NCBI GenBank assembly: GCA_947258845.1
Contig: CAMYJZ010000006.1
Span: 1 to 52,488 of the forward strand
DNA length: 52,488 nucleotides
Source: an uncultured Ectothiorhodospiraceae bacterium
GTDB lineage: Bacteria; Pseudomonadota; Gammaproteobacteria; UBA9214
Direction of reading: 5' to 3'
The notes beneath the pieces were generated by a model that did not search any database, was not told the origin of the DNA, and saw nothing but the letters and a program-made list of their open reading frames with translations. A program made the position numbers and the translations under genes. Of the stretch, positions 2,499-34,080 are shown piece after piece (position 1 is the first letter of the stretch; each line of letters starts with the position of its first letter).

Positions 2499-2513
2499 AA
2501 CCGATAACTCCGT

Positions 2514-4029: not shown

Positions 4030-4077
4030 TGCCGGTCTCCTGCAGTTGACTTGGCAGAGTGCGGTGCACCCTCCCGG

Positions 4078-4416
4078 TTAGTGGTTTTCGCTCACCATGT
4101 TGATGGTGTACTTGGGTATCTCGATCACCAGGTCCTGGTCGGCAACCATGGTCTGGCAGCTCAGGCGTGAATCCGGTTCCAGTCCCCAGGCCTTGTCCAG
4201 CAGGTCGTCCTCGTCCTCATCGGATTCGTTGAGGGAATCACCGCCCTCGCGGATATAGACATGACAGGTGGTGCAGGCGCAGGACTTCTCGCAGGCGTGC
4301 TCGATCTCGATGCCGTGGCTCAACGCGGCATCGCAGACACTGGTACCGGCCTCGGCCTCGATCACGGCCCCTTCCGGGCATATTTCCTCATGCGGTAAAA
4401 AGATAAGCTGCGGCAT
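4078..4416 (-). CDS. fdx: ISC-type [2Fe-2S] ferredoxin
   Basis: The 112-residue adrenodoxin-type ferredoxin provides electrons for cluster assembly on the ISC scaffold. The cluster ligands are visible as C42, C48 and C51 in ACEKSCACTTCHVYI and C87 in LSCQTMV, the same positions as in E. coli Fdx. The remaining sequence (EICPEGAVIEAEAGTSVCDAALSHGI) fits the family throughout. It lies 39 bp after hscA and 48 bp before iscX, in the usual operon position. Confidence 0.97.
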   Translation of the reverse strand: MPQLIFLPHEEICPEGAVIEAEAGTSVCDAALSHGIEIEHACEKSCACTTCHVYIREGGDSLNESDEDEDDLLDKAWGLEPDSRLSCQTMVADQDLVIEIPKYTINMVSENH

Positions 4417-4455
4417 ATCGGTTACGGGTCCCTGGATAAACGTTGCTTGTGGTTG

Positions 4456-6336
4456 TCAGCTTGATTTGAATTCATCGACGCGGTGTCCGGCCATCGCCTC
4501 GCGGATACTGGTGTTCATGCGGCGAGCCACGTAGTCGCTGCTGGCCGCCTCCACGGCCTCGATGCCCTGCTTGATGGCCTGCGGGTCGCTGCCTGCACGC
4601 GCGCCGGCCAGCTGCCGGGCCGCATCATCGATTACGGCACGCTCCTGTGGGTTCAGGATCCGGTCGCCGTCATCGGCCAGTGCGGCCTGCAGCGCCTCCA
4701 GCACCCGGTCCGCTTCGACCTGCTGTTCACGCAGGCGGCGCACCTCCATGTCCTCCTGCGCATGCGCCATGGAATCCTTGAGCATGTGTTCGATCTCGCT
4801 GTCACTGAGCCCGTAGGACGGCTTGACCTCGATGCTGCTCTTCACGCCCCTGACCTGTTCCTCGGCGCTGACGCTGAGCAGCCCGTCGGCATCGACCTGG
4901 AAGGTCACCCGGATGCGTGCCGCACCCGCTGTCATGGGCGGGATATCGCGCAGTTCGAATTTCGCCAGGGAGCGGCAGTCGCTCACCAGCTCACGGTCGC
5001 CCTGGACCACGTGCAGGGACATGGCGGTCTGGCCGTCCTTGAAGGTGGTGAATTCCTGTGCACGTGCGGTCGGGATGGTGGTATTGCGCGGGATGATCTT
5101 TTCCGCCAGTCCGCCCATGGTCTCCAGGCCCAGGGACAGGGGGATCACGTCCAGCAGCAGCATCTCGTCCTCCGGCTTGTTGCCGGCGAGGATATCCGCC
5201 TGGATCGCCGCCCCGATCGCGACCACCTTGTCCGGATCGATGTCCGCCAGGGGTTCGCGCTCGAAGAACCCGGCGACCCGGTCGCGCACCAGCGGTACGC
5301 GGGTGGAACCGCCGACCATCACCACCGCCTGTACATCCGCGGCACGGATACCGGCATCGCGCAGGGCACGCCTGCAGGGACCCAAAGTCTTCTGCACCAG
5401 CGGTGCGCACAACTCGTCAAATGTCGTGCGTGTCAGCCTGCCGCTCCAGCGGGAGCCATCGTTGCGTTCGATCTTCACCTCCACTGAAGCGGCATCCGTC
5501 AGGGCCTCCTTCGCGCTGCGCGCCTCCTGCATCAGGCGCCGCATCTGGAAATGGCCTGCATCATCCGGAATCCCGGCCTGCTGCATGATCCACAGCGCCA
5601 CGCTGCGGTCGAAGTCATCACCGCCGAGGGCGGTATCACCCGCCGTGGACATGACCTCGAATACGCCCTTGTTGAGTCGCAGGATGGAGATATCGAAGGT
5701 GCCGCCACCCAGGTCATAGATGGCCGTGACGCCCTCCGAAGCCCGGTCCAGCCCGTAGGCCACGGCAGCGGCGGTGGGTTCATTGAGCAGGCGCAGCACG
5801 TGCAGGCCGGCCAGCCGCCCGGCATCCTTGGTCGCCTGGCGCTGGGCGTCGTCGAAATAGGCCGGCACGGTGATGACCACGCCCTTCAGCTCGCCACCCA
5901 GGGCCTCCTCGGCACGCGTCTTGAGGACCTTCAGGATCTCTGCCGAGACCTCGACCGGGCTGACATCCCCCCCGGCCGTGTGCAACAGCGGCATACCTCT
6001 GGCAGCGGGCACAAACTCGTAGGGCAGGTGCGTACCCAGCCTCCTGACATCCTCCACCCCGCGCCCCATCAGGCGCTTGACCGAAGCGATGGTATTCAGC
6101 GGATCCATGGTTGCAGCAGCCAGGGCCTCGCGTCCGACCAGCGTCCCCTCCTCTTCCCGGTAGCGCACCACCGAGGGCAACAGGTGCTCGCCCTGCTCAT
6201 CCGCCAGCGTCTCCGCCAGCCCGCTGCGCACACTGGCCACCAGCGAATTTGTCGTCCCGAGATCGATCCCCGCCGCCAGCCGGTGCTGGTGCGGCGCCGT
6301 GGATTCACCGGGTTCAGATATTTGTATAAGTGCCAT
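4456..6336 (-). CDS. hscA: Fe-S assembly chaperone HscA (Hsp70 family)
   Basis: The 626-residue specialised Hsp70 releases clusters from the scaffold protein IscU. The N-terminal ATPase begins [17 protein letters not shown] and contains [48 protein letters not shown] and the [14 protein letters not shown] phosphate loop; a beta-sandwich substrate domain and helical lid follow. Length is close to E. coli HscA (616). HscA normally recognises the LPPVK motif of IscU, so finding hscA and hscB without iscU in the operon is odd. The preceding 174-bp gap holds an inverted-repeat element, unlike the tight hscB-hscA junction usual in other genomes. Confidence 0.97.
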
Positions 6337-6347
6337 GATTTAATTAG

Positions 6348-6492
6348 TTCACCGCAGAGACGCAGAGGACGCAGAGTCAATGATTACTAAATCCCGGATT
6401 AATCAGCGCCACGTGATCAGCTGATCCAGTGGATAAATTCCGGCCCTTTGAATAATAGACATTCTCTGCGTCCTCTGCGTCTCTGCGGTGAA
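6348..6492. repeat. 145-bp inverted-repeat element between hscB and hscA
   Basis: The ends are near-perfect inverted copies: TTCACCGCAGAGACGCAGAG with extension GACGCAGAG at 6348-6376, and its reverse complement at 6464-6492. The interior is AT-richer and encodes nothing. The same terminal sequence occurs at 14680-15028, 18943-19203 and 52290-52451, so this is a dispersed repeat family rather than a local hairpin. It lies between two co-directional operon genes and would form a strong RNA hairpin within the transcript. Confidence 0.9.
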
Positions 6493-6510
6493 TGATGTTT
6501 TCAATGCGCC

Positions 6511-7059
6511 TCAGTCCAGTTCGTCTTCAAGGGCCGCTTCCAGTTCCTGCGCCTCTTCATGGAGGCGACGGAAGAATTGCATCTTCATCAGGGTTTCCGC
6601 CGCGGCCCCGTCCTTGCCGGCACTGCCGGCACTGCCCAGACGCTGCTGCAATTCGCCGGTCAGTGCATCGAAATCCGCTGCTATCCTGTCCATGATCCCG
6701 TTCAGCGCGCTGAACGGGTCGTCTGCTGCACGCACCTCTTCCAGGGCCTCGCGCAACTCCACCTGCTCCATCAGGAAACCGTTATCACTGGTGGTGTGTT
6801 GTTCGTCATCGAAGACATGACCGCCCAGTTCCAGCAGGTAGCGCCCGCGCCTCAGGGGATCCTTCAGGGTCCGGTAGCCCTCATTGATGCGGGTCGCCAG
6901 CTGCATCGACAGCCGGCGCTCCTGGTCCGTCGCGTTCACGAAGCGATCCGGGTGCACCGTGCGCTGCAGCTCGCGGTAGCGTTCGTCCAGCTGTCCTGTA
7001 TCCACCAGGAACGACTGCGGCAAACCGAACAGCTCGAAATAGGTTGAGGATAAATCCAC
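6511..7059 (-). CDS. hscB: Fe-S assembly co-chaperone HscB (J-domain protein)
   Basis: The protein has an N-terminal J domain with the HPD motif (RELQRTVHPDRF) and INEGYRTLKDPLRRGRYLLELGG, then a C-terminal three-helix domain that binds IscU (QVELREALEEVRAADD; LMKMQFFRRLHEEAQELEAALED). I prefer the GTG at 7057-7059 (182 residues, beginning MDLSSTYFELFGL), because the AGGA ribosome site is only one base from the next upstream GTG at 7065. HscB recruits IscU to HscA. It follows iscA by about 50 bp. Confidence 0.94.
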   Translation of the reverse strand: MDLSSTYFELFGLPQSFLVDTGQLDERYRELQRTVHPDRFVNATDQERRLSMQLATRINEGYRTLKDPLRRGRYLLELGGHVFDDEQHTTSDNGFLMEQVELREALEEVRAADDPFSALNGIMDRIAADFDALTGELQQRLGSAGSAGKDGAAAETLMKMQFFRRLHEEAQELEAALEDELD

Positions 7060-7110
7060 AGCCACGTCCTGAGAAAGGGATTTCAGAAACAGGGCCAGCC
7101 GGGCGCTGAC

Positions 7111-7434
7111 TCAGACGTTGAAACTCTCCCCGCAGCCACACATATCCTTGACGTTGGGATTGTTGAACTTGAAGCCCTCGTTCAGCCCTTCCCTGGCATA
7201 GTCGAGCTCGGTGCCATCGAGGTACACCAGACTCTTCGGATTGATGATCACCTTGATACCCTGGTCCTCGAACACCACGTCATCCGCTTCGACCGTGTCG
7301 GCGAATTCGACAATATAGGCCATCCCGGAGCAGCCCGTGGTCTTCACGCCCAGGCGCAGGCCGACACCTTTGCCACGGTTATCCAGAAACTCTTTCACGC
7401 GGCCCGCGGCCGCTGCAGTGAGGGTAATTGCCAT
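7111..7434 (-). CDS. iscA: A-type Fe-S carrier IscA
   Basis: The 107-residue protein carries the three conserved cysteines of A-type carriers: C35 in TTGCSGMAY and C99/C101 in DMCGCGESF. It starts [19 protein letters not shown]. It receives and delivers Fe-S clusters to client apoproteins. It begins only 33 bp after the iscS stop, exactly where iscU would be expected to lie between the two genes. The residues and length are ordinary, so nothing suggests it has fused with or replaced the scaffold. Confidence 0.96.
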
Positions 7435-7467
7435 CGTGTGCTACCTGAATATCTATCCGTACAAAAA

Positions 7468-8688
7468 CTAGTGTGCCGCCCACTGCACCGAATCGAGGTC
7501 GATGCCGTCCTTGTACATCTCCCACAGGGGCGATAACTCGCGCAGCTTGCTGACCTTTTCGGTGACACGCTCGATGATGTAATCGATCTCGTCCTGCGTG
7601 GTGTAGCGGCCGATGGAAAAGCGGATCGAACTGTGCGCCAGTTCGTCATTCCGCCCCAGGGCACGCAGTACGTAGGACGGCTCCAGGCTGGCGCTGGTAC
7701 AGGCGGAGCCCGAGGATACCGCCATGTCCTTGAGCGCCATGATCAGGCTCTCGCCCTCGACAAAGTTGAAACTCACGTTCAGGTTGCCGGGAATTCGGTG
7801 ATCCAGGTCACCGTTGAGGTAAACCTCTTCCATGTCCCTGAGACCATTCCACAGGCGGTCGCGCAGCATCCGGAAGCGCTCGCTTTCGGCGGCCATCTCC
7901 TCTTTGGCGATACGAAAGGCCTCGCCCATTCCGACGATCTGGTGGGTCGGCAGGGTACCGGAGCGCATGCCGCGCTCGTGCCCGCCGCCATGCATCTGGG
8001 CCTCGATGCGCACCCGCGGCTTGCGGCGCACGTACAGCGCACCGATCCCCTTCGGGCCGTAGATCTTGTGGGCCGAGAAGGACATCAGGTCGACCTTGAG
8101 GGCCTGCAGGTCAATGGGGATCTTGCCGGCACTCTGGGCGGCATCCACGTGGAAGATGATCTTGCGCGCGCGGCACAACTCTCCGATCGCAGCGATGTCC
8201 TGGATGACACCGATTTCGTTATTTACGTGCATCACCGACACCACGACGGTGTCGTCACGCATGGCCGCCTCGAGTTTCCCGATATCCAGCAAGCCGCTCG
8301 GCTCGGGCTCCAGGTAAGTCACCTCGTAGCCCTCACGCTCCAGCTGTCGACAGGTATCCAGGACGGCCTTGTGTTCCGTCTTCAGGGTAATGATGTGCTT
8401 TCCCTGCTTCTTGTAGAAGTGCGCGGCACCCTTGATGGCCAGGTTGTCCGACTCGGTTGCTCCCGAGGTCCAGACGATCTCCCTTGGATCGGCGTTGATC
8501 AGCGCTGCAACGTTTTTACGTGCCTCGGTAACGGCCACATCGGCATCCCAGCCGAACTGGTGCGAGCGCGACGCCGGGTTGCCGAACTTGCCCTGGCGGG
8601 TCAGGTAGGTACACATCTTATCGGCCACCCGCTCATCCACCGGGGTGGTTGCCGAATAATCCATGTAAATCGGGATACTAATATTCAT
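7468..8688 (-). CDS. iscS: Cysteine desulfurase IscS
   Basis: A full-length 406-residue PLP enzyme that takes sulphur from cysteine for Fe-S clusters and thiolated tRNAs. Visible are [14 protein letters not shown] at the N-terminus, the [14 protein letters not shown] phosphate-binding loop, the PLP lysine in [12 protein letters not shown], the catalytic cysteine C330 in [21 protein letters not shown]-type context, and the C-terminal [11 protein letters not shown] tail that contacts partner proteins. It follows iscR by 39 bp. Nothing in the sequence points to an SufS- or NifS-type substitution. Confidence 0.98.
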
Positions 8689-8727
8689 AACGTCAGTTCC
8701 TGCCTAAACGAACATAAGCGGTTGCAG

Positions 8728-9204
8728 TCAAGCGACTGTCTTGTTCAAGTTCGGTGCCATGACATTCAGCCCCTGCTGCTGTCGACGGATCACCTGGTTG
8801 ACATCATCGCGTTCAAGAAAACTGGCCAGCGTAATACCGTTCAAAAATTCGTAGATCTCCTTGCCAAGCCGGGTCCAGAGCACATGGGTGAGGCAGCGTT
8901 CGCCTTCCTGGCAATCCTCGCTGCCCCCGCACTGGGTGACATCAATGCCTTCACCGATGGCGGTGATCACCTCGGCCACCGAGATATCCTGGGGGTGGCG
9001 TGACAGGCGGTAGCCACCACCGGGGCCGCGCAGGCCCTCCACCAGACCGTGCTTTCTCAACCGGGCAAACAACTGCTCCAGGTAGGAAAGGGAAATGCCC
9101 TGGCTCTCGGATATTTCCGCCAGCGTCACCGGACCCTGCGCATAATGAATGGCAAGATCCAGCATGGCGGTAACTGCGTAGCGCCCCTTTGTCGATAACC
9201 GCAT
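8728..9204 (-). CDS. iscR: Fe-S-sensing transcription regulator IscR (Rrf2 family)
   Basis: A 158-residue Rrf2 winged-helix regulator beginning [18 protein letters not shown]. The [2Fe-2S] ligands C92, C98, C104 and H107 ([17 protein letters not shown]) are at the same positions as in E. coli IscR. The reading frame continues 14 codons upstream, but MRLSTKGRY is the family start and I use 9204. Holo-IscR represses its own operon, so all genes down to iscX are probably controlled by it. DNA-recognition residues ([28 protein letters not shown], in two overlapping parts) look intact. Confidence 0.96.
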
Positions 9205-9276
9205 GAGTTTTTCCCGTTGGTTGCCCGCACCGGGAACGGGGGGCAACGGCTAATAACCTACTAAAACGCTCAGGTA

Positions 9277-9307
9277 ATAGTATGCGTTACTCGGGTATAA
9301 CTATCAA
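9277..9307 (-). promoter_or_regulatory. Probable isc operon promoter / IscR site
   Basis: Reading the minus strand, TTGATA (9302-9307) and TACTAT (9277-9282) are a plausible -35/-10 pair with a somewhat long 19-bp gap, about 75 bp before iscR. The stretch between them (ATAGTTATACCCGAGTAACG) begins like the type 1 IscR consensus ATAGTTGAC, but the right half is weak. Autoregulation is known for the family; this site assignment is a guess from the sequence. Confidence 0.45.
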
Positions 9308-9355
9308 GTAGTTGGCACAGGGCCGGAGAGTCCGGGCGGCAGCCCGGAAAAAACT

Positions 9356-9877
9356 TCAGGATTCAGCGATAAGCAGCGAATTCTCGACTGTTTGTATGGT
9401 TTTATCCGCGGCCAGGGTGGTGATTTTCGGGTTAAAGCGGTGCCCCTGCATCAGGCAGTATCCCAGCCACTTCTGCAGGAATCGGTTCATGCGCCACTTC
9501 TCGTTCAGGCTGTAGTTGTGGTGCATGCGGTTGTACTGGGCATGGCGCAGGCCCCGGCGACGCCCGCAGGCGATCACCTCGCCAACCTGGGCATCGTGGT
9601 AGATGCGCAGCTGCAGGTCGGGGGCGGGAAACTCGCCCTCCTCGTCGCGGAAGTGATAGGTCAGGTTCAGGGTAGTGGTGAACTTGCAGCGTTCGATGAT
9701 ACGCAGGTGCAGATCGAGGGCGCCGGGCACCCGCGAGATCAGGGCATCCGGAATGGCATCGAGATCGGGCACCAGGTTTCTCAGCCTGATGTAATTGCAC
9801 TCGTACAACTCCATCAGGCCGGCAAAGCTGCGTGGCGGTATACCGCAATAATCAGGCTGTCGTAAACTGCATTTCAT
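9356..9877 (-). CDS. DUF1249 (YqiB-like) conserved protein
   Basis: This 173-residue protein resembles E. coli YqiB: FAGLMELYECNYIRLRNLVPDL at the N-terminus, LHLRIIERCKFTTTLNLTYHF in the middle and DLQLRIYHDAQVGEVIACG followed by NEKWRMNRFLQKWLGYCLMQGH. The function of DUF1249 is unknown; in enterobacteria yqiB sits between nudF and cpdA. I start at the ATG at 9877; the frame remains open a further 14 codons upstream. Here it stands alone between the isc operon and the divergent glc operon, sharing the 9878-10060 promoter region with glcD. Confidence 0.85.
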   Translation of the reverse strand: MKCSLRQPDYCGIPPRSFAGLMELYECNYIRLRNLVPDLDAIPDALISRVPGALDLHLRIIERCKFTTTLNLTYHFRDEEGEFPAPDLQLRIYHDAQVGEVIACGRRRGLRHAQYNRMHHNYSLNEKWRMNRFLQKWLGYCLMQGHRFNPKITTLAADKTIQTVENSLLIAES

Positions 9878-10060
9878 GTTTCGATCATACCATGATGTGT
9901 AATTAATCTGCCTGCACACTGTACAGATGTTTTATAGTATCGGGTAAATTTATCGGCGCAGAACGTCAATTCTTGATCGTGCCTTGCATGAGATGTTGGC
10001 ATGGTTATTGATACACCGGGCAGACCGCCGTAATGACTTTATACCGGGCAAGACCCCTGC

Positions 10061-11515
10061 ATGTCTGACACCACTATCATCGATCTCCTGCGGGAAAGGC
10101 TACCGACGGAATGCGTGCTTTCCGAGGCCGAGGATCTGCGTCCCTACGAGTGTGACGGCCTCTCCGCCTACCGCAGGCTGCCCATGGTGGTGGTCATACC
10201 GCAAACCCTCGAGCAGGTGCAGACGACGCTGAAACTCTGCGCGCAGAACGCCGTGGCCGTTGTGGCACGCGGTGCCGGCACCGGTCTGTCCGGCGGCGCC
10301 CTGCCCTTGTCCGATGGTGTGTTGCTGAGCATGGCACGGTTCAACCGCATCCTCGGGATCGACACCGCCAACCGCACCGCACGGGTGCAACCGGGCGTGA
10401 CCAATCTCTCGATCTCGAAGGCGGCCGCACCCCATGGTCTCTACTACGCACCCGATCCCTCTTCACAGATTGCCTGCTCGATCGGCGGCAATGTTGCGGA
10501 AAATGCCGGTGGCGTGCACTGCCTCAAGTACGGACTCACCGTGCACAATATCCAGCAGCTCGAGGTGCTGACCATCGATGGCGAACACCTGACCATCGGC
10601 AGCCAGGCGCTGGACAGTCCCGGTTATGACCTGCTGGCGCTGATGACGGGATCGGAAGGCCTGCTCGGGGTGATCACGGAAATCACGGTGAAACTGCTGC
10701 CCCTGCCGGAAACCGCACAGGTCGTGCTGGCCGCCTTCGCATCGGTCGAGGCGGCAGGTGCGGCCGTCACCGCCACCATCGCGAACGGCATTATTCCGGC
10801 CGGGCTGGAACTGCTGGACAATCCGGCGATACGCGCCGTTGAACAATTCGTCCACGCCGGTTACCCGGAGGACGCCGCCGCCATCCTGCTGTGCGAACTC
10901 GACGGCACCGGGGCCGATGTCGCCGCCCAGATCGAGCGTGTCGACCAGGTATTCAGGGCGGCCGGGGCAACCGAACTGCGCGTCTCCCGCGACGAACAGG
11001 AACGCCAGCGTTTCTGGGCCGGGCGCAAGGCGGCATTCCCGGCTATGGGCCGGCTGTCACCCGACTACTACTGCATGGACGGCACCATCCCGCGCAAGCA
11101 CCTGTCCCGGGTGCTCGCGGAGATCGACCGTATGTCGACAGAATACGGCCTGCCCATCTGCAATGTCTTCCATGCCGGCGACGGCAACCTGCACCCCCTC
11201 ATCCTGTACGACGCCAACCGGCCGGGCGAGCTGGAACGCACCGAGGAACTGGGCGGCAAGATACTCGAGCTGTGCGTGGCCGTGGGCGGCACCATCACCG
11301 GGGAACACGGCGTGGGCATGGAAAAGATCAACCAGATGTGTGTGCAGTTCAATACCGAGGAACTGACCCAGCTGCACGCCGTCAAGGCCGCCTTCGATCC
11401 GCAGGGTCTGCTGAATCCCGGCAAGGCCATCCCGACGCTGCACCGCTGCGCCGAGTTCGGCGCCATGCACGTCCACCACGGCCAGCTGCCGCACCCGGAA
11501 CTGGAACGTTTTTAG
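10061..11515 (+). CDS. glcD: Glycolate dehydrogenase, FAD subunit GlcD
   Basis: The 484-residue FAD-linked subunit belongs to the vanillyl-alcohol oxidase/PCMH superfamily. The FAD pyrophosphate loop is VARGAGTGLSGGALPLSDG near residue 70, followed by GGNVAENAGGVHCLKYGLT; the C-terminal substrate domain has FHAGDGNLHPLILYD and TGEHGVGMEKI. With GlcE and GlcF it oxidises glycolate to glyoxylate at the membrane and passes electrons to quinone. glcE follows by 18 bp and glcF by a further 8, so the three form one operon. The substrate could include D-lactate, but the complete GlcDEF set favours glycolate. Confidence 0.95.
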   Translation: MSDTTIIDLLRERLPTECVLSEAEDLRPYECDGLSAYRRLPMVVVIPQTLEQVQTTLKLCAQNAVAVVARGAGTGLSGGALPLSDGVLLSMARFNRILGIDTANRTARVQPGVTNLSISKAAAPHGLYYAPDPSSQIACSIGGNVAENAGGVHCLKYGLTVHNIQQLEVLTIDGEHLTIGSQALDSPGYDLLALMTGSEGLLGVITEITVKLLPLPETAQVVLAAFASVEAAGAAVTATIANGIIPAGLELLDNPAIRAVEQFVHAGYPEDAAAILLCELDGTGADVAAQIERVDQVFRAAGATELRVSRDEQERQRFWAGRKAAFPAMGRLSPDYYCMDGTIPRKHLSRVLAEIDRMSTEYGLPICNVFHAGDGNLHPLILYDANRPGELERTEELGGKILELCVAVGGTITGEHGVGMEKINQMCVQFNTEELTQLHAVKAAFDPQGLLNPGKAIPTLHRCAEFGAMHVHHGQLPHPELERF

Positions 11516-11533
11516 GCAGGCGATCCGTTCATC

Positions 11534-12586
11534 ATGTCACTTGTTGAATCCTTACAGGACACTCTGCGCGACGCCGCCGCAACCGGTACGCCGTTGTCGA
11601 TACATGCCGGCGGCAGCAAGTCCTTCTATGGCAGGCCGGTCACTGGCACCGGGTTCAGTGTCGCGGAATACACCGGCATCATCGACTACTCACCCACGGA
11701 ACTGGTGATCTCGGCACGCGCCGGCACCCCGCTGTCCGAACTGGAGTCCGCGCTGGCAAAGGAAAACCAGATGCTGCCGTTTGAACCGCCGCACTTCGGC
11801 CCGGGTGCCACCCTCGGCGGCACCATCGCCTGCGGATTCTCCGGACCACGCCGCCCCTATACAGGTGCGGCCCGCGATTTTGTCCTGGGGATCACCTGCC
11901 TGAACGGCCGGGGTGAACGGCTGCGTTTCGGCGGCCAGGTCATGAAGAACGTGGCCGGTTACGACCTCTCGCGCACCCTCACCGGCTCCCTGGGAACCCT
12001 GGCCGTGCTGCTGGATATCTCCCTCAAGGTCCTGCCGCGCCCGGAGACCGAACTCACCCTGTGCCACGAGGTGTCAGCCGAACAGGCCCTGCAGCAGCTG
12101 AACACCTGGGCGAGCCAACCGCTGCCCTTGTCCGGCGGCTGCTACAGCGAGGGACAGCTCAGGGTGCGCCTGTCGGGATTCGAACAGGGCGTGCAGGCGG
12201 CCGCCCGGCAGCTGGGGGGTGAGGAACTGGCCGACGCCGATGGCTTCTGGCGGGACCTGCGCGAGCAGCGCCTTGGGTTTTTCCAGGATGAGCGACCCCT
12301 GTGGCGTGTGTCGGTACCGCCCGCCGCCGCGGCACTCGCGCTGGAAGCCGGGGAACTGATCGACTGGGGTGGTGCACAGCGCTGGCTCAAGACCACCCTG
12401 CCGACGCAGACACTACGGGATGCCGCCGTGCGTGCCGGCGGGCATGCAACCTGTTTCCACGGCGGCAACCGCGAGGATGTATTCCATCCTCTGGACCCGG
12501 CAATAAAGGCACTGCATCAGCGCCTCAAGGCCAGTTTCGACCCGGCCGGCATCCTTAACCCCGGCCGCATGTACAGCGGGATCTGA
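11534..12586 (+). CDS. glcE: Glycolate dehydrogenase subunit GlcE
   Basis: A 350-residue second FAD-binding subunit, shorter than GlcD. The FAD motif is IHAGGSKSFYGRP near residue 25, with FEPPHFGPGATLGGTIACGFSGPRRP-type and GGQVMKNVAGYDLSRTLTGSLG segments typical of GlcE. The C-terminus ASFDPAGILNPGRMYSGI closes the PCMH fold. It has no separate catalytic domain and acts only in the GlcDEF complex. Position between glcD and glcF is canonical. Confidence 0.94.
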   Translation: MSLVESLQDTLRDAAATGTPLSIHAGGSKSFYGRPVTGTGFSVAEYTGIIDYSPTELVISARAGTPLSELESALAKENQMLPFEPPHFGPGATLGGTIACGFSGPRRPYTGAARDFVLGITCLNGRGERLRFGGQVMKNVAGYDLSRTLTGSLGTLAVLLDISLKVLPRPETELTLCHEVSAEQALQQLNTWASQPLPLSGGCYSEGQLRVRLSGFEQGVQAAARQLGGEELADADGFWRDLREQRLGFFQDERPLWRVSVPPAAAALALEAGELIDWGGAQRWLKTTLPTQTLRDAAVRAGGHATCFHGGNREDVFHPLDPAIKALHQRLKASFDPAGILNPGRMYSGI

Positions 12587-12594
12587 TTCAGTCC

Positions 12595-13827
12595 ATGCAA
12601 ACCTCACTGCCCGAAGCGTTTCTGCAAACGGCCACCGGGAAGGCCGCCGATAACATCCTGCGCAATTGCGTACACTGCGGCTTCTGCAACGCGACCTGTC
12701 CGACCTACCAGCTGACCGGGGATGAACTGGATGGTCCGCGCGGGCGCATCTACCTCATGAAACAGGCGCTGGAGGGCCAGCCACCGTCCACCCGCACCCA
12801 GCTGCACCTCGACCGCTGCCTGACTTGCCGCGCCTGCGAGACCACCTGTCCCTCCGGCGTCGATTACCACACCCTGCTGGACATCGGGCGCGAATACATC
12901 GAACCGCGTGTCAGGCGACCGCTGCTGCAACGGCTCCGGCGGCGCCTGCTGCGCCTGGTCCTGACCAGCCCGCGGCGCTTCACACCCCTGCTGCGCGTGG
13001 CGCAAGGCCTGCGTCCCGTACTGCCCGCCAGTCTCGGCAGGTCCATCCCCGCCCGGGTCCCTGGCGGACATGCCGTAAGCGGAAGAGCACTGCCGCGAAC
13101 CATGCTGCTGCTGGACGGTTGCGTGCAACCGGCACTGGCACCGCAGATCAACCGGGCGACCCGGCGCGTCCTGGCGGCACTCGGTATCAATGCCGTGATC
13201 CCGAAAGGCAGCGGTTGCTGTGGTGCACTTAGTCATCACCTGACGGCCACACAGGAAGCCCGGGGCTTCATGAAAACCAATATCGATGCCTGGTGGCCGG
13301 TCATCGAGGCCGGCGCGGAAGCGATCGTGATCAGCGCCAGCGGCTGCGCCCCCACGGTCAAGGATTACGGCCGCCTGCTGGCGGATGAACCCGCCTACGC
13401 GGACAGGGCCGCACGCGTGAGTGAACTGGCCCGCGATCTCAGCGAGGTCATCAGCGCGGAGCAGCCGGCGGCCTCCCTGAAACGTCGCGCCAGTGGCAAC
13501 AAGATCGCCTTCCATTCACCCTGCTCACTGCAGCATGGACAACAGATCACGGGCATCGTGGAAGAGCTGCTGGTACAGTCGGGTTATACCCTGGTACCGG
13601 TGGCCGATGCCCACCTGTGCTGCGGTTCGGCCGGCACCTACTCTATGCTGCAGCCGGCGCTGGCCGGACAACTGCGCAGCAACAAACTCAGGGCGCTGCA
13701 GGCGGAGCAGGCCTCCGCCATCGTCACCGCGAATATCGGCTGCCTGACGCACATGGCCGGCCACGCCCGGGTCCCCGTCCAACACTGGATCGAACTACTG
13801 GAACCATTATTCACCGAGGCACCATGA
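12595..13827 (+). CDS. glcF: Glycolate dehydrogenase iron-sulphur subunit GlcF
   Basis: The 410-residue protein carries two [4Fe-4S] ferredoxin motifs at the N-terminus, CVHCGFCNATCPT (about 23-35) and CLTCRACETTCPSGV (about 75-89), and two CCG domains in the C-terminal half (GSGCCGALSHH; LCCGSAGTYSM). It conducts electrons from the flavin subunits to the quinone pool. The last codons overlap the start of the rhodanese gene (ATGA), which suggests translational coupling to it. Sequence and length are normal for GlcF. Confidence 0.95.
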   Translation: MQTSLPEAFLQTATGKAADNILRNCVHCGFCNATCPTYQLTGDELDGPRGRIYLMKQALEGQPPSTRTQLHLDRCLTCRACETTCPSGVDYHTLLDIGREYIEPRVRRPLLQRLRRRLLRLVLTSPRRFTPLLRVAQGLRPVLPASLGRSIPARVPGGHAVSGRALPRTMLLLDGCVQPALAPQINRATRRVLAALGINAVIPKGSGCCGALSHHLTATQEARGFMKTNIDAWWPVIEAGAEAIVISASGCAPTVKDYGRLLADEPAYADRAARVSELARDLSEVISAEQPAASLKRRASGNKIAFHSPCSLQHGQQITGIVEELLVQSGYTLVPVADAHLCCGSAGTYSMLQPALAGQLRSNKLRALQAEQASAIVTANIGCLTHMAGHARVPVQHWIELLEPLFTEAP

Positions 13828-22719: not shown

Positions 22720-25491
22720 CTATTCCCCGGATACAGCCTGGTTTTTCATGATGTCGTTCGCCATGGCCTCGAGTTCACCGAGAATGGCATCGATCCGGGC
22801 CTGCTCACTGGCAGTGACCGCTTGCTGAAACAGGCCGGTCTTTTCGTGGAATTCGCTCAGGCCGAAATACCCCGCCAGGCCCTTGAGTTGATGCGCATGG
22901 TCGCGCATTCGATCGACATCCCGGTCACTACAGGCACTGCGCAAGCCTTGCAACTGCACGCCCAACTCCTCATGCAGCAGGCGCCGCAAGTCGCCGGGTA
23001 TCCCGCCATTGCGGTCTTCATGACTTGCACCGGCCTCCTCGGGCGGGTTCACCCCGGGCAGGCTGCCGAGCCGGGTCACACTCCGGCGTCTGTTGACCCA
23101 CTTGTGCAGAACGGCACTCAATTTGTCATCGTTGACCGGCTTGTAAATGCAGTCATCGATGCCGGTTGCATCCAGGCACTGATCACGATCGGCAAAGACA
23201 TCTGCCGTCAGGGCTACGATCGGTGTCTGCCTGTTCAAGCCCGCACGGATGAGCTGTGCCGCGTGTACACCACCCATCTCCGGCATGTGGATATCCATCA
23301 GGATAAGGTCAAACAGCTCCTGCACGGCACACTGCACGGCCTCACGACCATCCACTGCCATCTGTACAGAGACACCCATATCAGTCAGCAGCTTGATGAT
23401 CAGCTCACGGTTGAAACGGTTGTCCTCTGCGACCAGCACCCGCATCCCCTGCAAATCGCTACCGGTGACCGCGCCGCCGGGTGCAGACGATGTACGGCCA
23501 TCGCCAGCCGGTCCCTGAGGCAATTCGAGCACATTACGCACCGCTCTCAACAGGGTATTACTCAACACGGGCTTGGACAATATCTGGATGCTGCGATCAT
23601 CCGGGAGTGTGACCTCAAACCCGGCGGTATCATTACCCACAAGAATCAGGACCGGCAGATCGGGCCACGCTGCCGTTGCTTCCAGAAGATTGCCGATGAT
23701 GGTATTGTCACCCTCCCGGGAAGGCAGCCCGAGCACCAGCAGCTGGCAGGGTTCATTGCCGGCTTGCGAGACGTGCAGAAAATCGTGCGCCCTGCTCCAT
23801 TCACCCATATTGAAAACGCTGGCGCCCCAGCCGATAAAACGATTCCGCAGTGACCTCCGCGAGTAGTCATTGCTATCGTAAACCAGCACCTTGACGCCTT
23901 CCAGATGTCGTGGCATCCGCTGGTCTGCTGTTTCGGACATCCTTGCAGGTAGCGTAAACCAGAAAGTCGAACCCTGCCCTGGCGTGCTTTTCACTCCCAT
24001 ATCGCCACCGAGCAGATCAACGACCTTCCTGCTGATCGAAAGCCCCAGACCCGTTCCGCCATACCGACGGCTGATCGCCGAACTTGCCTGCCGGAATGGT
24101 TGAAACACAGACTTGGCCTCTTTGTCACCCAGGCCAATCCCCGTATCGCTTACTTCGATACATATGGTCAGCTGCCGCCCGTCAAGCTCCACCACGGACA
24201 CCTCCACTACCACGTGTCCGCTCTCGGTGAACTTGATGGCATTGTTCAACAGATTGGTCACGACCTGATTGATACGGCTGCCGTCTGCAAAGATCCTGGC
24301 GGGTACGTCAGAATGCAGTAACAGTACCAGCTCGAGACCTTTCTCATGGGCTGCTGCACTCAGCATGGTGACAACATTCTCAAGCGAGTCATGCAAGTCA
24401 AACAGCGCCGGCTCGATGACCAGTGCGCCTGACTCCAGCCTGGAAATATTGAGAATATCGTCTATCACAGAGAGCAATGAAGTCGCTGCCTGTGACACGG
24501 TACGGGTATATTCGTACTGCTGATCCGTTTGCCGGGTTTTTTCGAGCAGGTTGGCAAATCCGATAACTGCATTCAATGGAGTGCGGATCTCATGACTCAT
24601 TTTTGCCAGGAATTCAGCTTTCGCCTCTCCCGCCTGCAAGGCCACCCGGCGTGCCTCATCGAGCTCACGGTTCCTGTTTTCCAGGCTTTTTACCGTACTT
24701 CTCAGGTCCGATGTCGCCTGACTGACTTCAGCCGTTAACCGCTCTTGCGCATTCCCGATAGTCACCGCCATCGTGTTGATGCCCTCTGCGAGGGTGGCAA
24801 GTTCACCTCCGAACCCGACCGGCACCCTTGCCCCAAGCTGCCCCCTGCGCAAGCGTTCAACCGTCTTGATGATATGGCCGATCGGGCCGGTGACACTGCG
24901 CCCGATGAACAGCGCCATCAGGGCGCTCAGTAGAAGACCGGCAAGTACCATCAGGATACTGTTACGCAATATCTCCACCTGTCGGGCATCACTCGCCTCC
25001 CGGGACAGGCTCAGCTCCACCCAGCCGAGGATACGCCCATCCGCCCCCATGACAATCTCCTCATCCGAATCGGGATAATCGCTAATGGATATCTGGCTGG
25101 ATCGAATTGGCGCTGTAAATAACAGGCTGGACTCCTGCAAGTACGTAGTCCCGATGCTATTACTCGTTGCGGACTCCAGGTCGCGGTTGCGATGCAGCAG
25201 CACATTCTTGTCGGGATCCAGAATGGCCACGGTTTGCACATCCGGCTCAGCCAGGGCGCCCCGCAGCACCGGCTCCAGCATGTCACGGTTATCTGCAAAC
25301 ATTCCGAATTCACTCAAGGGCGCCAGGTAATGGACGAGCGCGGTCCCGCGCTGCATCAGTTGCTGATCGACATCACGCAAGCGCGCTACTGTCATGTAAT
25401 AACCCAGCGTGGCTGTGACAATCACCAGCGGCACAAGAACGCTGATCAATACGCGTGTCCTGATGCTTCGGCTATCAAACCAGCGAATCAT
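22720..25491 (-). CDS. BarA-like tripartite hybrid sensor histidine kinase
   Basis: The 923-residue inner-membrane kinase has the BarA domain order. TM1 lies at 13-33, a periplasmic sCache-like sensor at about 35-170 (QRGTALVHYLAPLSEFGMF as in BarA), TM2 at 177-197, and HAMP at about 200-250. HisKA contains H300 (AKMSHEIRTPLNAVIGF), and the ATPase has LLNNAIKF, DTGIGLG and GGTGLGLSIS. A degenerate first receiver follows (LLVLGLPSREG, with glycine in place of the phospho-aspartate), then an intact receiver (D733 in LILMDIHMPEMGG) and an HPt domain (H867 in DHAHQLKGLAG). Its ATG overlaps the upstream binding-protein gene by 4 bp, suggesting that the two sense together. It is BarA/GacS-like in architecture but not necessarily the orthologue. 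Confidence 0.92.
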   Translation of the reverse strand: MIRWFDSRSIRTRVLISVLVPLVIVTATLGYYMTVARLRDVDQQLMQRGTALVHYLAPLSEFGMFADNRDMLEPVLRGALAEPDVQTVAILDPDKNVLLHRNRDLESATSNSIGTTYLQESSLLFTAPIRSSQISISDYPDSDEEIVMGADGRILGWVELSLSREASDARQVEILRNSILMVLAGLLLSALMALFIGRSVTGPIGHIIKTVERLRRGQLGARVPVGFGGELATLAEGINTMAVTIGNAQERLTAEVSQATSDLRSTVKSLENRNRELDEARRVALQAGEAKAEFLAKMSHEIRTPLNAVIGFANLLEKTRQTDQQYEYTRTVSQAATSLLSVIDDILNISRLESGALVIEPALFDLHDSLENVVTMLSAAAHEKGLELVLLLHSDVPARIFADGSRINQVVTNLLNNAIKFTESGHVVVEVSVVELDGRQLTICIEVSDTGIGLGDKEAKSVFQPFRQASSAISRRYGGTGLGLSISRKVVDLLGGDMGVKSTPGQGSTFWFTLPARMSETADQRMPRHLEGVKVLVYDSNDYSRRSLRNRFIGWGASVFNMGEWSRAHDFLHVSQAGNEPCQLLVLGLPSREGDNTIIGNLLEATAAWPDLPVLILVGNDTAGFEVTLPDDRSIQILSKPVLSNTLLRAVRNVLELPQGPAGDGRTSSAPGGAVTGSDLQGMRVLVAEDNRFNRELIIKLLTDMGVSVQMAVDGREAVQCAVQELFDLILMDIHMPEMGGVHAAQLIRAGLNRQTPIVALTADVFADRDQCLDATGIDDCIYKPVNDDKLSAVLHKWVNRRRSVTRLGSLPGVNPPEEAGASHEDRNGGIPGDLRRLLHEELGVQLQGLRSACSDRDVDRMRDHAHQLKGLAGYFGLSEFHEKTGLFQQAVTASEQARIDAILGELEAMANDIMKNQAVSGE

Positions 25492-26480
25492 TGCGCTTGC
25501 CTGCCTTCTTCGGCCTGCATCAGCTGCTGCAACAACAGGTCCTCGTCCGGCAGCGAAAGACCGATCGAACGTGCAACGGAGCGGTTCAGGCCCAGACTGA
25601 AATATTTAGGATATATCTGCCGGGGCAGGTTGACGGAATTGCCCTCGATATAGTCGTAGACAATTTCTGCCGCCTGCCTGCCGATCTGCTCCGGGGTGGA
25701 ATAGACGGCTGCCAGCGCACCGGCATCCACATAGGCCCTGGAGAAACCGATGACCGGCACCCTGTGCTGATAGGCAAGATACAGCAACCACTTGGATATA
25801 TTCGGATTGAGGGCAACACTGTCGTACACCGCCAGCAAGGCCTTATTGTCCTTGATCAGATCTTCAATTATCGGAACCGGGTTCGCGTCTTCATCGACCA
25901 CCGCTTCATTCAATTCCACTCCGGCTGCGCTGGCTGCTGCACGGTATTCAGCAGCTTCCTGGCGTGAAGTAGGCCCCCACAGAACGCCAACACTGCGCGA
26001 ACCGGCAAGTATGCTCCTGGCCAGTCGTATACGCCGTAACGGTGGCTGGTCAAGGACAATGCCAGCGAACTTTCCGGACCGGTGCCGCTTGCCTGCGGAT
26101 TCCGAAGTGTTCATCAGGGTGCTGAAGGTCACTTTCGGCGTCACGATACTCAGTGCCGGCGTATCAATATCCGCATCGACCAGCTTGCGGGTTGCGCGGC
26201 TGCCGATGGCGATAATCAGGTCGGAGTCGGATGCACCGATATCGATACTGTCTTCAGTTTTGTCATCGATCAGTTTCCTGACGTCAAGTGCGACCGTGAT
26301 ATCCCCATATTCATCGAGACGTTGCTTGAAGCCACGCATCGTCTGCAAGTGGACCTCCGCCTTGCCGCTCAGTAACAGCGTGATACGGGGATTCTTCTCG
26401 GCCGAGTGCGCAGGAAAAACTGTCGCCGTAAAGGCGAGCAGCAACAGGCACAGAAACCTTGTTGTCATGATCGGCTTCAT
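25488..26480 (-). CDS. Periplasmic ABC-type substrate-binding protein (PF04392-like), no transporter genes
   Basis: A 330-residue secreted protein with a signal peptide (MTTRFLCLLLLAFTATVFPAHSA region) and a two-lobed type I periplasmic-binding fold: ITLLLSGKAEVHLQTMRGFKQ, SDLIIAIGSRATRKLVDADIDTPAL-type and VGVLWGPTSRQEAAEYRAAA segments, LLAVYDSVALNPNISKWLL and the C-terminal GRQAAEIVYDYIEGNSV. These match the ABC_sub_bind family often annotated as ABC transporter substrate-binding. No permease or ATPase is nearby; instead the stop overlaps the kinase start by 4 bp, and a TonB receptor gene lies 56 bp upstream. A sensory role, handing ligand state to the kinase, is more likely than uptake. 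Confidence 0.85.
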   Translation of the reverse strand: MKPIMTTRFLCLLLLAFTATVFPAHSAEKNPRITLLLSGKAEVHLQTMRGFKQRLDEYGDITVALDVRKLIDDKTEDSIDIGASDSDLIIAIGSRATRKLVDADIDTPALSIVTPKVTFSTLMNTSESAGKRHRSGKFAGIVLDQPPLRRIRLARSILAGSRSVGVLWGPTSRQEAAEYRAAASAAGVELNEAVVDEDANPVPIIEDLIKDNKALLAVYDSVALNPNISKWLLYLAYQHRVPVIGFSRAYVDAGALAAVYSTPEQIGRQAAEIVYDYIEGNSVNLPRQIYPKYFSLGLNRSVARSIGLSLPDEDLLLQQLMQAEEGRQAQ

Positions 26481-26536
26481 TATTTCGTCAGCACTGGCAA
26501 TCCTGTCTTCCGCTCCGGTCTGGTTCGCTACTTATC

Positions 26537-28606
26537 TCACGGCAATGACAGGCTGAACTGGAGATAGGCCCGGGTATCGAAGACATTTTCTTTGCGGAAC
26601 TCCTGGTAGTCTCCGCCCAGGTTCTGCATCACCAGGGCGACGTCGCCTTTCGATTGACCCAGCTTGAATTTCCTCGCAATGCGACCATCGACGCGCGTAT
26701 AGCTCGGCACTGCATCCCCGTCACCCAGCCAGGTCATGGCGCTCATGCCATAGATACCCAGGCTGGCCTCCCAGCCGGAATCAAAGGCATAGCTGCCCAG
26801 CAGGCCATAGGTCTGCGTGGGAACATAATTACTATAATTTTTGCACTTTTCGCTAAAACCCTCTGCATCCGGAATTTGAGGACATTCAGAAGGCCGAACA
26901 TTGAACAGTGTGTTCTCGCTGACAAATACACCTGATGGATCTGCATAGGCATAGTGCAACGTCAGGAAGCTTGCAGGGCCTGGCCGGTAGGTCAGCGCCA
27001 GTTCGATACCGTTGATATCCAGGTCGCCCACGTCGGGTGTCGTGACGGCATGGGATAATTCAAGTGGAGGGTCTGTCAGATTGAACGGATCGAATTCATT
27101 ATCTCTGCGGTCCTTGACCTTGCCAATGATGTCCCTGATTTCCTCGCGATAGAGCTTAATATCCAGCGTCAGCGCCTGCCTGGGCCAGTGTCCTACATAG
27201 CCGAGTTCGTAGGAGGTGATCTCCTCGGGATCATCCAGGCCGTTGCTGAAACGGGCCCCGAACAGCAGTTCCCCGTCATTGAAGCGGTAGGCGTGGAACT
27301 CGTGCTCCTCGAACAGGGATGGAATCCGGTAGGCCCTTGCCACACTGGCTCGCACGGTATGGTTCGGTATGAGGCGATAGTTCAGACCCAGGCGGGGCGA
27401 GTACTGGGTGTCAACGATATCACCGGCTTCGACCATGGCACCTGCATTAACCAATAAACGCTCCGTCAGCTGCCCTTCGACGTTGACGAACAGGCGTTTG
27501 ACCAAGTCGTCCTCTGCCTGACTGAACCAGTAACGCCCATCAACCGTGTCATGGCGCAGGCTCCCGCCCCAGGCAAGCCGCAGGCCATCCCGGGGCTGCA
27601 GGGTATGCTGAAACTCGAGATCAAACCGCTCGGTATGGGTGTTGTAGATACCGTGATTGATCGTCTGGCCGAAGTCAGGCAGGGGGATCTGAAAGGTGTC
27701 CTCCATATCGAGGTAGTTGTAGTAGAACTGGACATAAAACGATTCCGCCGGGGACAGGGCCCGGTTCCAGCGCAGGTAACCGAAACTGGTTGCAACCTCG
27801 CGGTCGCGTGCCGGATCCAGGGGATCATCGATCTCCGCAATACCGTAATCACCGCCCGCAGCACCGAACTGCAGATCCAGCTGGTCCCTTGTATTCAGCT
27901 GGTAGTTGCCCCGGAATGAAAGCTTGCCGACCTCGGCATCGTCACTGATCATGGGGTCGTCGAAACCGCTGTCCTCACGGTAACTGCCGCTGACCCGGTA
28001 CTCGAAGTCCCCGCTCCTGCCGCCGTAGCGGAACATGCCGATGCCGGTGTCCCGGCTACCCCCGGTGGCCTTCAGGTAGCTGCCCTGGTCCTGGAAGGGC
28101 TGCCGTGTGAAGATATTAATGACCCCATCAAAGGCATTGGACCCGTGGCTGGTAACATTCGGTCCACGGGCAACCTCGATACGATCAATATCTTCTATCT
28201 CGAGCGGGAGGGTGAGCCAGTCGACACTGGAGAAAACCGGTGTGTATACCGAACGCCCGTCGATCATCACCAGCAGGCGGCGCGGGAAATTGCCGGCCAC
28301 GCCATGCGAAGTCACGGCGAACTGGTTGCCGGAGATGTGGGCCACCTGAAAGCCCGGCACCAGTCGGAACAGGTCGGCCAGGTTGATGGCCCCGGACGCC
28401 CGGATCATGTCCCGGTCGATCACCGTCACTGACGCCGGGGCGTCCTCCGGGCGCTGGGCCAGCCGCGTAACCGAGCTGACCAGCGGGATGTCGGCCAGCA
28501 CATCAACCTCCGTCGGCAGATCCGCTGCACCCAATCCTCCCGAGACAAGAAAACCTAACAGGTACACAGAATAGGCCTGTCGGTAGTTCAGGTGGTTTAT
28601 ATTCAT
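26537..28606 (-). CDS. TonB-dependent outer-membrane receptor
   Basis: The 689-residue protein has a signal peptide ending near SGGLGAADLP, a plug domain (APASVTVIDRDMIRASGAINLADLF; RLLVMIDGRSVYTP; IDRIEVARGPNVTSHGSNAFDGVINIFT in separate parts), and a 22-strand-type barrel ending in the aromatic-terminated strand AYLQFSLSLP. Barrel turns such as LGLNYRLIPNHTVRASVARAYRIPSLFEE are typical. The ligand cannot be read from the sequence; plug and barrel resemble siderophore or cobalamin-type receptors only in a general way. It is followed by the binding protein and the kinase in the same direction, so they probably share a transcript. Confidence 0.93.
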   Translation of the reverse strand: MNINHLNYRQAYSVYLLGFLVSGGLGAADLPTEVDVLADIPLVSSVTRLAQRPEDAPASVTVIDRDMIRASGAINLADLFRLVPGFQVAHISGNQFAVTSHGVAGNFPRRLLVMIDGRSVYTPVFSSVDWLTLPLEIEDIDRIEVARGPNVTSHGSNAFDGVINIFTRQPFQDQGSYLKATGGSRDTGIGMFRYGGRSGDFEYRVSGSYREDSGFDDPMISDDAEVGKLSFRGNYQLNTRDQLDLQFGAAGGDYGIAEIDDPLDPARDREVATSFGYLRWNRALSPAESFYVQFYYNYLDMEDTFQIPLPDFGQTINHGIYNTHTERFDLEFQHTLQPRDGLRLAWGGSLRHDTVDGRYWFSQAEDDLVKRLFVNVEGQLTERLLVNAGAMVEAGDIVDTQYSPRLGLNYRLIPNHTVRASVARAYRIPSLFEEHEFHAYRFNDGELLFGARFSNGLDDPEEITSYELGYVGHWPRQALTLDIKLYREEIRDIIGKVKDRRDNEFDPFNLTDPPLELSHAVTTPDVGDLDINGIELALTYRPGPASFLTLHYAYADPSGVFVSENTLFNVRPSECPQIPDAEGFSEKCKNYSNYVPTQTYGLLGSYAFDSGWEASLGIYGMSAMTWLGDGDAVPSYTRVDGRIARKFKLGQSKGDVALVMQNLGGDYQEFRKENVFDTRAYLQFSLSLP

Positions 28607-28681
28607 TTGGTATTCCCTCGAAAATTTAATGCTGGTGAATCTCTTTCGATGATTATGGAAGGCCAGATTTACTCATCTTGC

Positions 28682-28769
28682 GTCATTCCGGCGAAGGCCG
28701 GAATCCAGACACGGCCTGATGACCCACTCCTGGATTCCGGGTCGCCACTACGCTCCGCCCGGAATGACA
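28682..28769. repeat. Inverted-repeat element of the GTCATTCCGG...GGAATCCAG type
   Basis: The 88-bp unit has outer ends GTCATTCCGGCG and CCCGGAATGAC and inner copies of GGAATCCAG / CTGGATTCC, forming nested palindromes. A second copy of the family is at 33991-34080 with a different loop. It lies in the 245-bp gap between the response-regulator gene and the TonB-receptor gene. Elements of this sequence are widespread in proteobacteria as short non-autonomous repeats; no transposase is in the window. Confidence 0.85.
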
Positions 28770-28851
28770 GCTTGAGCCGACTTTCCTTATTTGTTTTGTA
28801 ATTGTGTTACCTGTTTTGCAATTCTGCCTGTGCAGGTCAGCACCACCCCCT

Positions 28852-29499
28852 TCAGTCGGATTGCAACCTGTCCAGCCCCCTGGACGCGACCGCGGCCTCG
28901 GTCCGGTTGTTTACTCCCAGCACCTTGAAGATGGCCGTGACATGGATTTTGACGGTATGGGCCGACAGGCCCAGTTGCCGGGCAATGGTCTTGTTGGACT
29001 TGCCCTCACCCAGCAGTTTGAGCACTTCAAGCTGCCGGGGTGTGAGGTCAGATTGTGATGCAGGCGTCATCCTGGCTGGTACGTCAGCGGCACCCGCGTC
29101 TGGCTGATGCAGCATGGCCGGCGGTATATAGACGCCACCGGACAAGACCAGCTGGATAGCGCTGCTCATCACCGCATGAGCGGCACTTTTCTGTATAAAC
29201 CCGGCGGCCCCGCGGTCGATGACGCGCTGCATGACACGGGCGTCATCGGTTGCTGACAAAATAATGACAGGGATATGCGAATAACCGTTGCAGACCTCTG
29301 TCAGCAAGCCCAGGTCTGTGACCCCCGGCATATACAGGTCGAGCAGGATCAGATCGATATCGGGATTGTTTGAAAGACTTTCCAGGACCTGACTGCGATC
29401 CGCGGCCTCCACCACAGAGAGGTCCTCTGAAAGATCGGACAGCAGAAGCTTTATACCATCCCGGACAATTTCATGATCATCGGCAATGAGTATCTTCAT
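28852..29499 (-). CDS. NarL/FixJ-family response regulator
   Basis: The 215-residue protein has a receiver domain with the acidic pocket (ILIADDHEIVRDG), the phospho-aspartate D54 in LILLDLYMPGV, and the conserved lysine in GFIQKSAAHAV, then a LuxR-type helix-turn-helix (LTPRQLEVLKLLGEGKSNKT; LGLSAHTVKIHVTAIFKVLGV). It lies upstream of, and co-directional with, the TonB receptor, binding protein and BarA-like kinase, so it is the obvious candidate output regulator of that kinase; BarA and GacS in other bacteria also signal to NarL-type regulators. The 245-bp gap downstream suggests it may be a separate transcript. Confidence 0.93.
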   Translation of the reverse strand: MKILIADDHEIVRDGIKLLLSDLSEDLSVVEAADRSQVLESLSNNPDIDLILLDLYMPGVTDLGLLTEVCNGYSHIPVIILSATDDARVMQRVIDRGAAGFIQKSAAHAVMSSAIQLVLSGGVYIPPAMLHQPDAGAADVPARMTPASQSDLTPRQLEVLKLLGEGKSNKTIARQLGLSAHTVKIHVTAIFKVLGVNNRTEAAVASRGLDRLQSD

Positions 29500-33990: not shown

Positions 33991-34080
33991 CGTCATTCCG
34001 GGCGGAGCGAAGCGGAAACCCGGAATCCAGTTGTTGCTGATCAGCTGGTTACTGGATTCCGGCTTGCGCCGGAATGACGA
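33991..34080. repeat. Second inverted-repeat element of the GTCATTCCGG type
   Basis: The 90-bp unit has the outer ends CGTCATTCCGGGCGGAGCGA and CTTGCGCCGGAATGACGA and the inner pair GGAATCCAG / CTGGATTCCGG. It shares ends and inner boxes with 28682-28769 but in a different arrangement. It fills most of the gap between the GDSL esterase gene and the sterol desaturase gene; nothing else is visible there. Confidence 0.85.

Follow-up and report, generated by a model that had tools for sequence, protein, structure and literature searches.

A putative trans-envelope sensory module with a BarA/GacS-type hybrid kinase in an uncultured Ectothiorhodospiraceae bacterium

Introduction

What do four adjacent genes do together when they encode a TonB-dependent outer-membrane receptor, a periplasmic binding protein without an ATP-binding cassette (ABC) transporter, a tripartite hybrid kinase and a NarL-type response regulator? 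Here we report the analysis of such a locus in an uncultured Ectothiorhodospiraceae bacterium (Gammaproteobacteria). The window, by which we mean the whole analysed stretch of 52,488 nucleotides (contig CAMYJZ010000006.1 of assembly GCA_947258845.1), is a single contig from a draft genome with a total size of 2.35 Mb and a completeness of 94%. An original prediction, made from the DNA sequence alone, had read the four genes as a relay from an imported ligand to gene control; this is still the best reading and is partly supported by our survey of related loci, while the individual steps of the mechanism stay conditional.

We consider that the locus probably constitutes a trans-envelope sensory module that runs from receptor to binding protein, kinase and regulator. 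The TonB-dependent receptor would bring a scarce or large ligand to the periplasm, where the orphan type-I binding protein would capture it and, in one of its conformations, contact the Cache domain of the kinase around Asp138. This contact would switch the phosphorelay from His300 via Asp733 to His867, and the phosphoryl group would pass to Asp54 of the adjacent NarL-type regulator and change transcription. The whole would work like the VpvAB sensing unit with a kinase as its output, and many relatives at the barA/gacS locus probably feed GacA/UvrY. We infer the ligand import, the docking, the direction of the switch and the partner in phosphotransfer from the observations given below.

Results

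All four genes are encoded on the minus strand in the order regulator, receptor, binding protein and kinase. Pfam and the coordinates confirm the same-direction set that had been described originally, and the same order occurs in other genomes. The features of the locus are as follows.

28852..29499, minus strand: NarL/LuxR-type response regulator, 215 amino acids (aa) (Pfam Response_reg and GerE)
29338-29340, minus strand: phospho-acceptor D54 of the regulator, invariant across 16 regulators
28681..28767, no strand given: repetitive extragenic palindrome (REP)-like inverted element in the gap between regulator and receptor (sequence and pattern searches)
26537..28606, minus strand: TonB-dependent receptor, 689 aa, with plug and barrel, no STN domain (Pfam)
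25488..26480, minus strand: orphan periplasmic binding protein, PF04392, type-I fold, 330 aa, Sec-type N-terminal signal sequence (Pfam, AlphaFold, Foldseek)
25488..25491, minus strand: ATGA, shared by the stop of the binding-protein gene and the start of the kinase gene (sequence)
22720..25491, minus strand: BarA/GacS-type tripartite hybrid kinase, 923 aa (Pfam, BarA model, conserved residues)
24592-24594, 23293-23295 and 22891-22893, minus strand: phosphorelay residues H300, D733 and H867 of the kinase (residue conservation)
24988..25386, minus strand: sCache_4 periplasmic sensor domain of the kinase, aa 36-168 (Pfam, model)
25075..25092, minus strand: ISISDY motif of the kinase, aa 134-139, including D138; candidate docking element (residue statistics)

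The ATG of the kinase lies inside the end of the binding-protein gene (...GCG CAA TGA), which gives an overlap of 4 bases; that start and stop overlap had been noticed in the original prediction. A gap of -4 between the two genes is also found in many related loci. The four-gene set is flanked by dnaX and recR on one side and by sdaA (L-serine dehydratase) on the other.

The binding protein matched ABC_sub_bind (PF04392) with 61.6 bits (cut-off 25.9) and was the only PF04392 protein encoded in the source genome. Its AlphaFold model (predicted local distance difference test, pLDDT, 93) retrieved type-I periplasmic binding proteins with Foldseek; among the top hits, which also included 3lkv and 3lft, the best superposition was with 6hnj, the open form of CD0873 (template modelling score, TM, 0.69/0.76). 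The relative 3lft is a Trp complex, and no ligand was assigned from it. Family and fold are those of ABC-transporter components, but a cognate permease and ATPase are missing: no BPD_transp_2 permease was found in the source genome (94% complete), whereas such a permease is present in 12 of 14 control genomes, and no ABC ATPase motif was found in the window. This bears out the original view of a binding protein without a transporter. The receptor has Plug and barrel domains in Pfam; its nearest named family was TOL_0244 (NF053590; 250.8 bits, below the cut-off of 645), and its PDB matches, mostly short and confined to the plug region of siderophore, colicin, haem and B12 receptors, gave no clue to the ligand. 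Since the source genome has three TonB_C matches, the receptor can be energised.

Related loci were collected by profile searches of whole genomes; a plain contig scan with the binding protein had given only one close relative. The binding protein was encoded in 76 of 369 genomes of the class (E <= 1e-10), and the unit of receptor, binding protein and kinase was found across dozens of gammaproteobacterial families without ABC partners. The complete order of regulator, receptor, binding protein and kinase recurs in two further genomes of the genus. It is also present in a second genus of the family, where the flanks differ and the binding protein is only 33% identical. Among the 67 loci that were read, a receptor was present in 52, a kinase in 49 and an adjacent NarL-type regulator in 16, and no co-directional ABC ATPase was detected by motif beside the binding protein in these neighbourhoods. 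Relatives of the binding protein are thus not found mainly beside permeases, a pattern that the original prediction had named as fatal to itself. A chance neighbourhood of four genes was rejected on the survey, since the order recurs with other flanks, and so was a role of the binding protein in an ABC transporter, since ABC partners are absent. In four loci, a protein with sCache_4, HAMP, PAS, GGDEF and EAL domains replaces the kinase. Because such GGDEF-EAL proteins also occupy the place of the kinase, the output of the receptor and binding-protein unit is exchangeable.

Two further observations concern the binding-protein family. Other PF04392 proteins of the class are encoded directly before kinase-like or GGDEF-motif proteins (loci L134, L135, L140, L143, L144, L146, L147, L148, L150 and L151), and with such neighbours a sensory role may be frequent in this 'ABC transporter' family. 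A mobilizable plasmid of Massilia sp. H6 (NZ_CP103372.1; L169) carries a related set in the order regulator, CPBP protease, TonB receptor, binding-protein match and a shorter HAMP kinase.

The kinase of the window contains sCache_4, HAMP, HisKA, HATPase_c, Response_reg and Hpt domains, all above the Pfam cut-offs, and has the sCache_4-HAMP-HisKA-HATPase-REC-Hpt architecture of BarA/GacS. It matched the BarA model NF008318 over nearly its whole length (611.7 bits, below the equivalog cut-off of 890); two module kinases from other genomes exceeded this cut-off (919.6 and 907.5 bits), and in most genomes tested the module kinase was the best BarA-model match. All 46 kinases scanned contained HisKA, HATPase and receiver domains, 41 of them sCache_4 and 40 Hpt. 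A narrow pattern had suggested that Hpt is absent from most relatives, which was rejected after inspection and Pfam showed Hpt with a relaxed motif. The phospho-acceptors are conserved in the order His, Asp, His and Asp (H300, D733 and H867 of the kinase and D54 of the regulator).

A binding protein is common beside kinases of this type. We sampled 68 full-length BarA-like kinases, taken as those with a match of 500 bits or more that begins at the start of the BarA model; a binding protein adjoined 41 of them, in 39 cases directly upstream. The window set does not adjoin rlmD or cysM; in 30 of the 67 loci, however, the unit is near cysM, rlmD, acpS, pdxJ or recO, and one further, regulator-linked locus had a relA match. 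In E. coli, barA adjoins rlmD and then relA, and the gacS gene of Pseudomonas is near cysM. In the kinase tree, all regulator-linked kinases, together with one whose contig stops short of the regulator position, formed one clade (14 rows; Shimodaira-Hasegawa-like approximate likelihood ratio test, SH-aLRT, 100), and E. coli BarA was nested among the module kinases of gac loci in a 39-row clade (SH-aLRT 95, from a short search without bootstrap). The tree of the binding proteins was less resolved, with most but not all of the regulator-linked proteins together. Because of the kinase tree, the gac-locus positions and the binding proteins beside BarA-like kinases, the window represents a branch of a BarA/GacS-type family that has moved to another position and carries a regulator; input by way of the outer membrane and periplasm is common in this family.

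Decayed binding-protein genes were looked for beside non-module BarA kinases, and none were found. At one locus (L284; G154:C1:2330300-2337300), a TonB receptor is encoded next to a BarA-like kinase that has an ISDY motif and a stop codon inside its matched frame, but there is no binding protein; this locus may be a decaying module.

The regulator scored only 89.8 bits against the GacA/UvrY model NF007018 (cut-off 280), and a separate GacA with 296.7 bits is encoded elsewhere in the source genome. Phylogenetic analysis separated the module regulators from GacA/UvrY with strong support. Adjacent module regulators matched their own profile with 313-322 bits, whereas the best matches elsewhere mostly reached 125-165 bits, with a few at 190-250. 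Distances among regulators followed those among kinases (rho 0.74), and none of 1000 permutations gave a value as high.

The coupling between binding protein and kinase was approached in the same way. Distances among binding proteins followed those among the periplasmic domains of the kinases (rho 0.69) and among receptors (0.72) more closely than those among kinase cores (0.54); after correction for the kinase core, the partial correlation between binding protein and periplasmic domain was 0.58. Within the N-terminal 300 residues of the kinases, Asp138 in the ISISDY motif was the most discriminating position (33 of 46 module kinases, none of 14 non-module BarA-type kinases). When the association was predicted beforehand for new loci, the residue was found in 9 of 11 kinases with and 3 of 15 without the binding protein (Fisher p 0.004, in a test that ignores relatedness). 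The ISISDY stretch has low confidence in the kinase model, which might fit a loop that is bound to a partner, and residue statistics mark it with Asp138 as a candidate docking element for the binding protein. The model of the periplasmic domain itself retrieved the periplasmic domains of WalK, LapD and CitA-type proteins among its Foldseek hits.

Weighing the alternatives

Several points weigh against a sensory module of the kind proposed. Shared species history inflates the distance correlations, and the receptor or the regulator is absent from some loci. Asp138 lies in a poorly predicted, gappy loop, and shared descent and alignment gaps are caveats to its association with the binding protein; one of the three hold-out kinases that carry the aligned residue without a binding protein is that of L284, where a TonB receptor adjoins. 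Small acids, furthermore, may bind directly to the Cache domain, and signalling to GacA is possible in a genome that encodes GacA and in which the search for further BarA-type kinases with an sCache domain gave none.

The last point leads to the strongest alternative, that the kinase is the BarA/GacS of this genome and signals mainly to the unlinked GacA/UvrY, while the adjacent regulator has another partner. The absence of a second such kinase, the almost end-to-end match to the BarA model and the many relatives at the gacS locus without an adjacent regulator all speak for it; yet the regulator is kept beside the kinase throughout the kinase clade, forms a clade of its own and co-varies with its kinase neighbour. 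GacA is, moreover, retained without any such kinase in a complete genome of the genus, and two genomes hold the regulator-linked module plus a second BarA-like kinase. We regard this explanation as unlikely for the window. Because the module regulators form their own clade and co-vary with the kinase, and because GacA persists without such a kinase, the sequence comparisons favour the adjacent regulator as the partner in the window and GacA as the partner in the gac-locus relatives. About half of the relatives have no adjacent regulator, with the kinase at the barA/gacS locus, and most likely signal to a distant GacA. The original prediction had named a kinase serving only a distant GacA/UvrY as evidence against itself, and here the outcome is divided: this most likely holds for such relatives, but probably not for the clade of the window.

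It is considerably less probable, to the point of being improbable, that the binding protein serves transport or scavenging (or an unlinked ABC transporter) and that a small ligand is sensed by direct binding to the Cache domain of the kinase. In favour of this, the PF04392 family takes its name from ABC transport, and the Cache domain of E. coli BarA senses acetate or formate in protonated form (PMC8639471). Against it, there is no BPD_transp_2 permease in the genome and there are no ABC partners in the survey, and the binding protein co-varies with the periplasmic domain and is associated with Asp138. The residues of the E. coli acetate pocket are kept neither in the window and module kinases nor in non-module kinases, in a stretch where the alignment is weak, and so do not discriminate. 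Regulated uptake operons are common and the regulator gene is the first of the group, but a mere import operon, in which the kinase system controls receptor and binding protein while sensing bypasses them, is the least probable explanation, as there is no permease for onward transport of the ligand, 30 loci have the unit and kinase at the gacS locus, which is the position of a global regulator, and receptor and binding protein also pair with GGDEF-EAL proteins.

Other features of the window and genome

Between the end of the regulator gene and the start of the receptor gene there are 245 bases, part of which is occupied by the REP-like repeat. This inverted element (TCATTCCGGGCGGAGC ... CGCCGGAATGACG) has two copies in the window (28681-28767 and 33993-34079). 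Promoter-like sites at the locus were not in excess over chance. Window positions 1326-13827 encode a CoA-ligase (ATP-grasp) subunit, an HpcH/HpaI aldolase and a class-V aminotransferase, followed by glcDEF-like FAD oxidase and iron-sulfur genes, and are possibly serine-cycle/glycolate genes. Elsewhere in the source genome (L158; G000:C68, 432-1337 and 1348-3927), an RpfC-like hybrid kinase is convergent with an RpfF-like enoyl-CoA hydratase, probably as a diffusible signal factor (DSF) quorum-sensing pair.

Discussion

A periplasmic binding protein adjoins a hybrid kinase also in TorT/TorS and LuxP/LuxQ, which to our knowledge have no outer-membrane receptor; the window kinase scored far below the TorS and LuxQ model cut-offs (363 vs 676.5 and 306 vs 1200). 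TonB receptors are coupled to gene control in FecA/FecR and SusCD/HTCS, but the locus has no STN domain, anti-sigma factor or SusD and instead a soluble binding protein between receptor and kinase. The nearest named receptor family comprises the OmpS/TOL_0244 receptors of alkane degraders, in which OmpS is reported to be needed for alkane detection (PMC6304351); the window receptor remained below the cut-off of that family, and nothing here points to alkanes.

The closest described system, compared by gene order and description, is VpvABC of Vibrio cholerae (PMC12456836; PMC8754643), a three-component module of porin, periplasmic binding protein and diguanylate cyclase; a signal, likely imported by VpvA, would be sensed by VpvB/VpvC (PMC12456836). 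In the window, too, an outer-membrane protein gene is followed by one for a periplasmic binding protein and then by one for a signalling enzyme of the inner membrane; there, however, the outer-membrane protein is a TonB receptor and not a porin, and the output is a BarA-type phosphorelay with its own regulator and not a diguanylate cyclase. Many gamma- and betaproteobacteria have vpvAB without vpvC, and vpvAB has been suggested to be a conserved sensing unit (PMC12456836); the main text of that paper makes no mention of kinases, BarA or GacS. The original prediction had missed this parallel, while its comparison with BarA/GacS was apt in layout and extends to descent. BarA/UvrY and GacS/GacA share the kinase architecture with the window, the barA/gacS locus is where relatives of the module reside, and their kinases include E. 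coli BarA as a nested member in the tree; the window differs in a kinase below the BarA cut-off, in its dnaX/sdaA flanks and in an adjacent regulator that is not GacA.

VpvABC and BarA/GacS are themselves known; what is new is a VpvAB-like input unit joined to BarA/GacS kinases, together with a testable idea about the BarA/GacS signal. No report linking a receptor and binding-protein unit to BarA/GacS was found in the searchable open-access literature, which leaves most subscription papers outside, and a review of the GacS signal does not contain the terms TonB or cysM in its text (PMC7695008). The signal of GacS has been described as unknown or without consensus (PMC7695008; PMC13390462). In many bacteria, biofilm formation, stress tolerance and secondary metabolism are under the control of the Gac pathway. 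Tentatively, and at somewhat less than an even chance, we suggest that the BarA/GacS kinase family originally received its input from a TonB receptor with a dedicated binding protein, so that the kinase, now a global regulator, started out as the inner component of a three-component sensor gated at the outer membrane. The outer parts would then have been lost in several lineages, enterobacterial BarA being one of them, and the branch of the window would have taken on a private regulator. If this were true, the elusive signal of GacS/BarA in many bacteria would be the ligand of the binding protein.

Should a dedicated receptor and a soluble binding protein prove to accompany many BarA-type kinases, their signal could be sought by ordinary ligand screening on a small soluble protein, and the specificity of the receptor would provide a second clue. 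The surveyed loci also give an example of a single outer-membrane sensing unit connected to two kinds of output, phosphorelays and cyclic-di-GMP enzymes.

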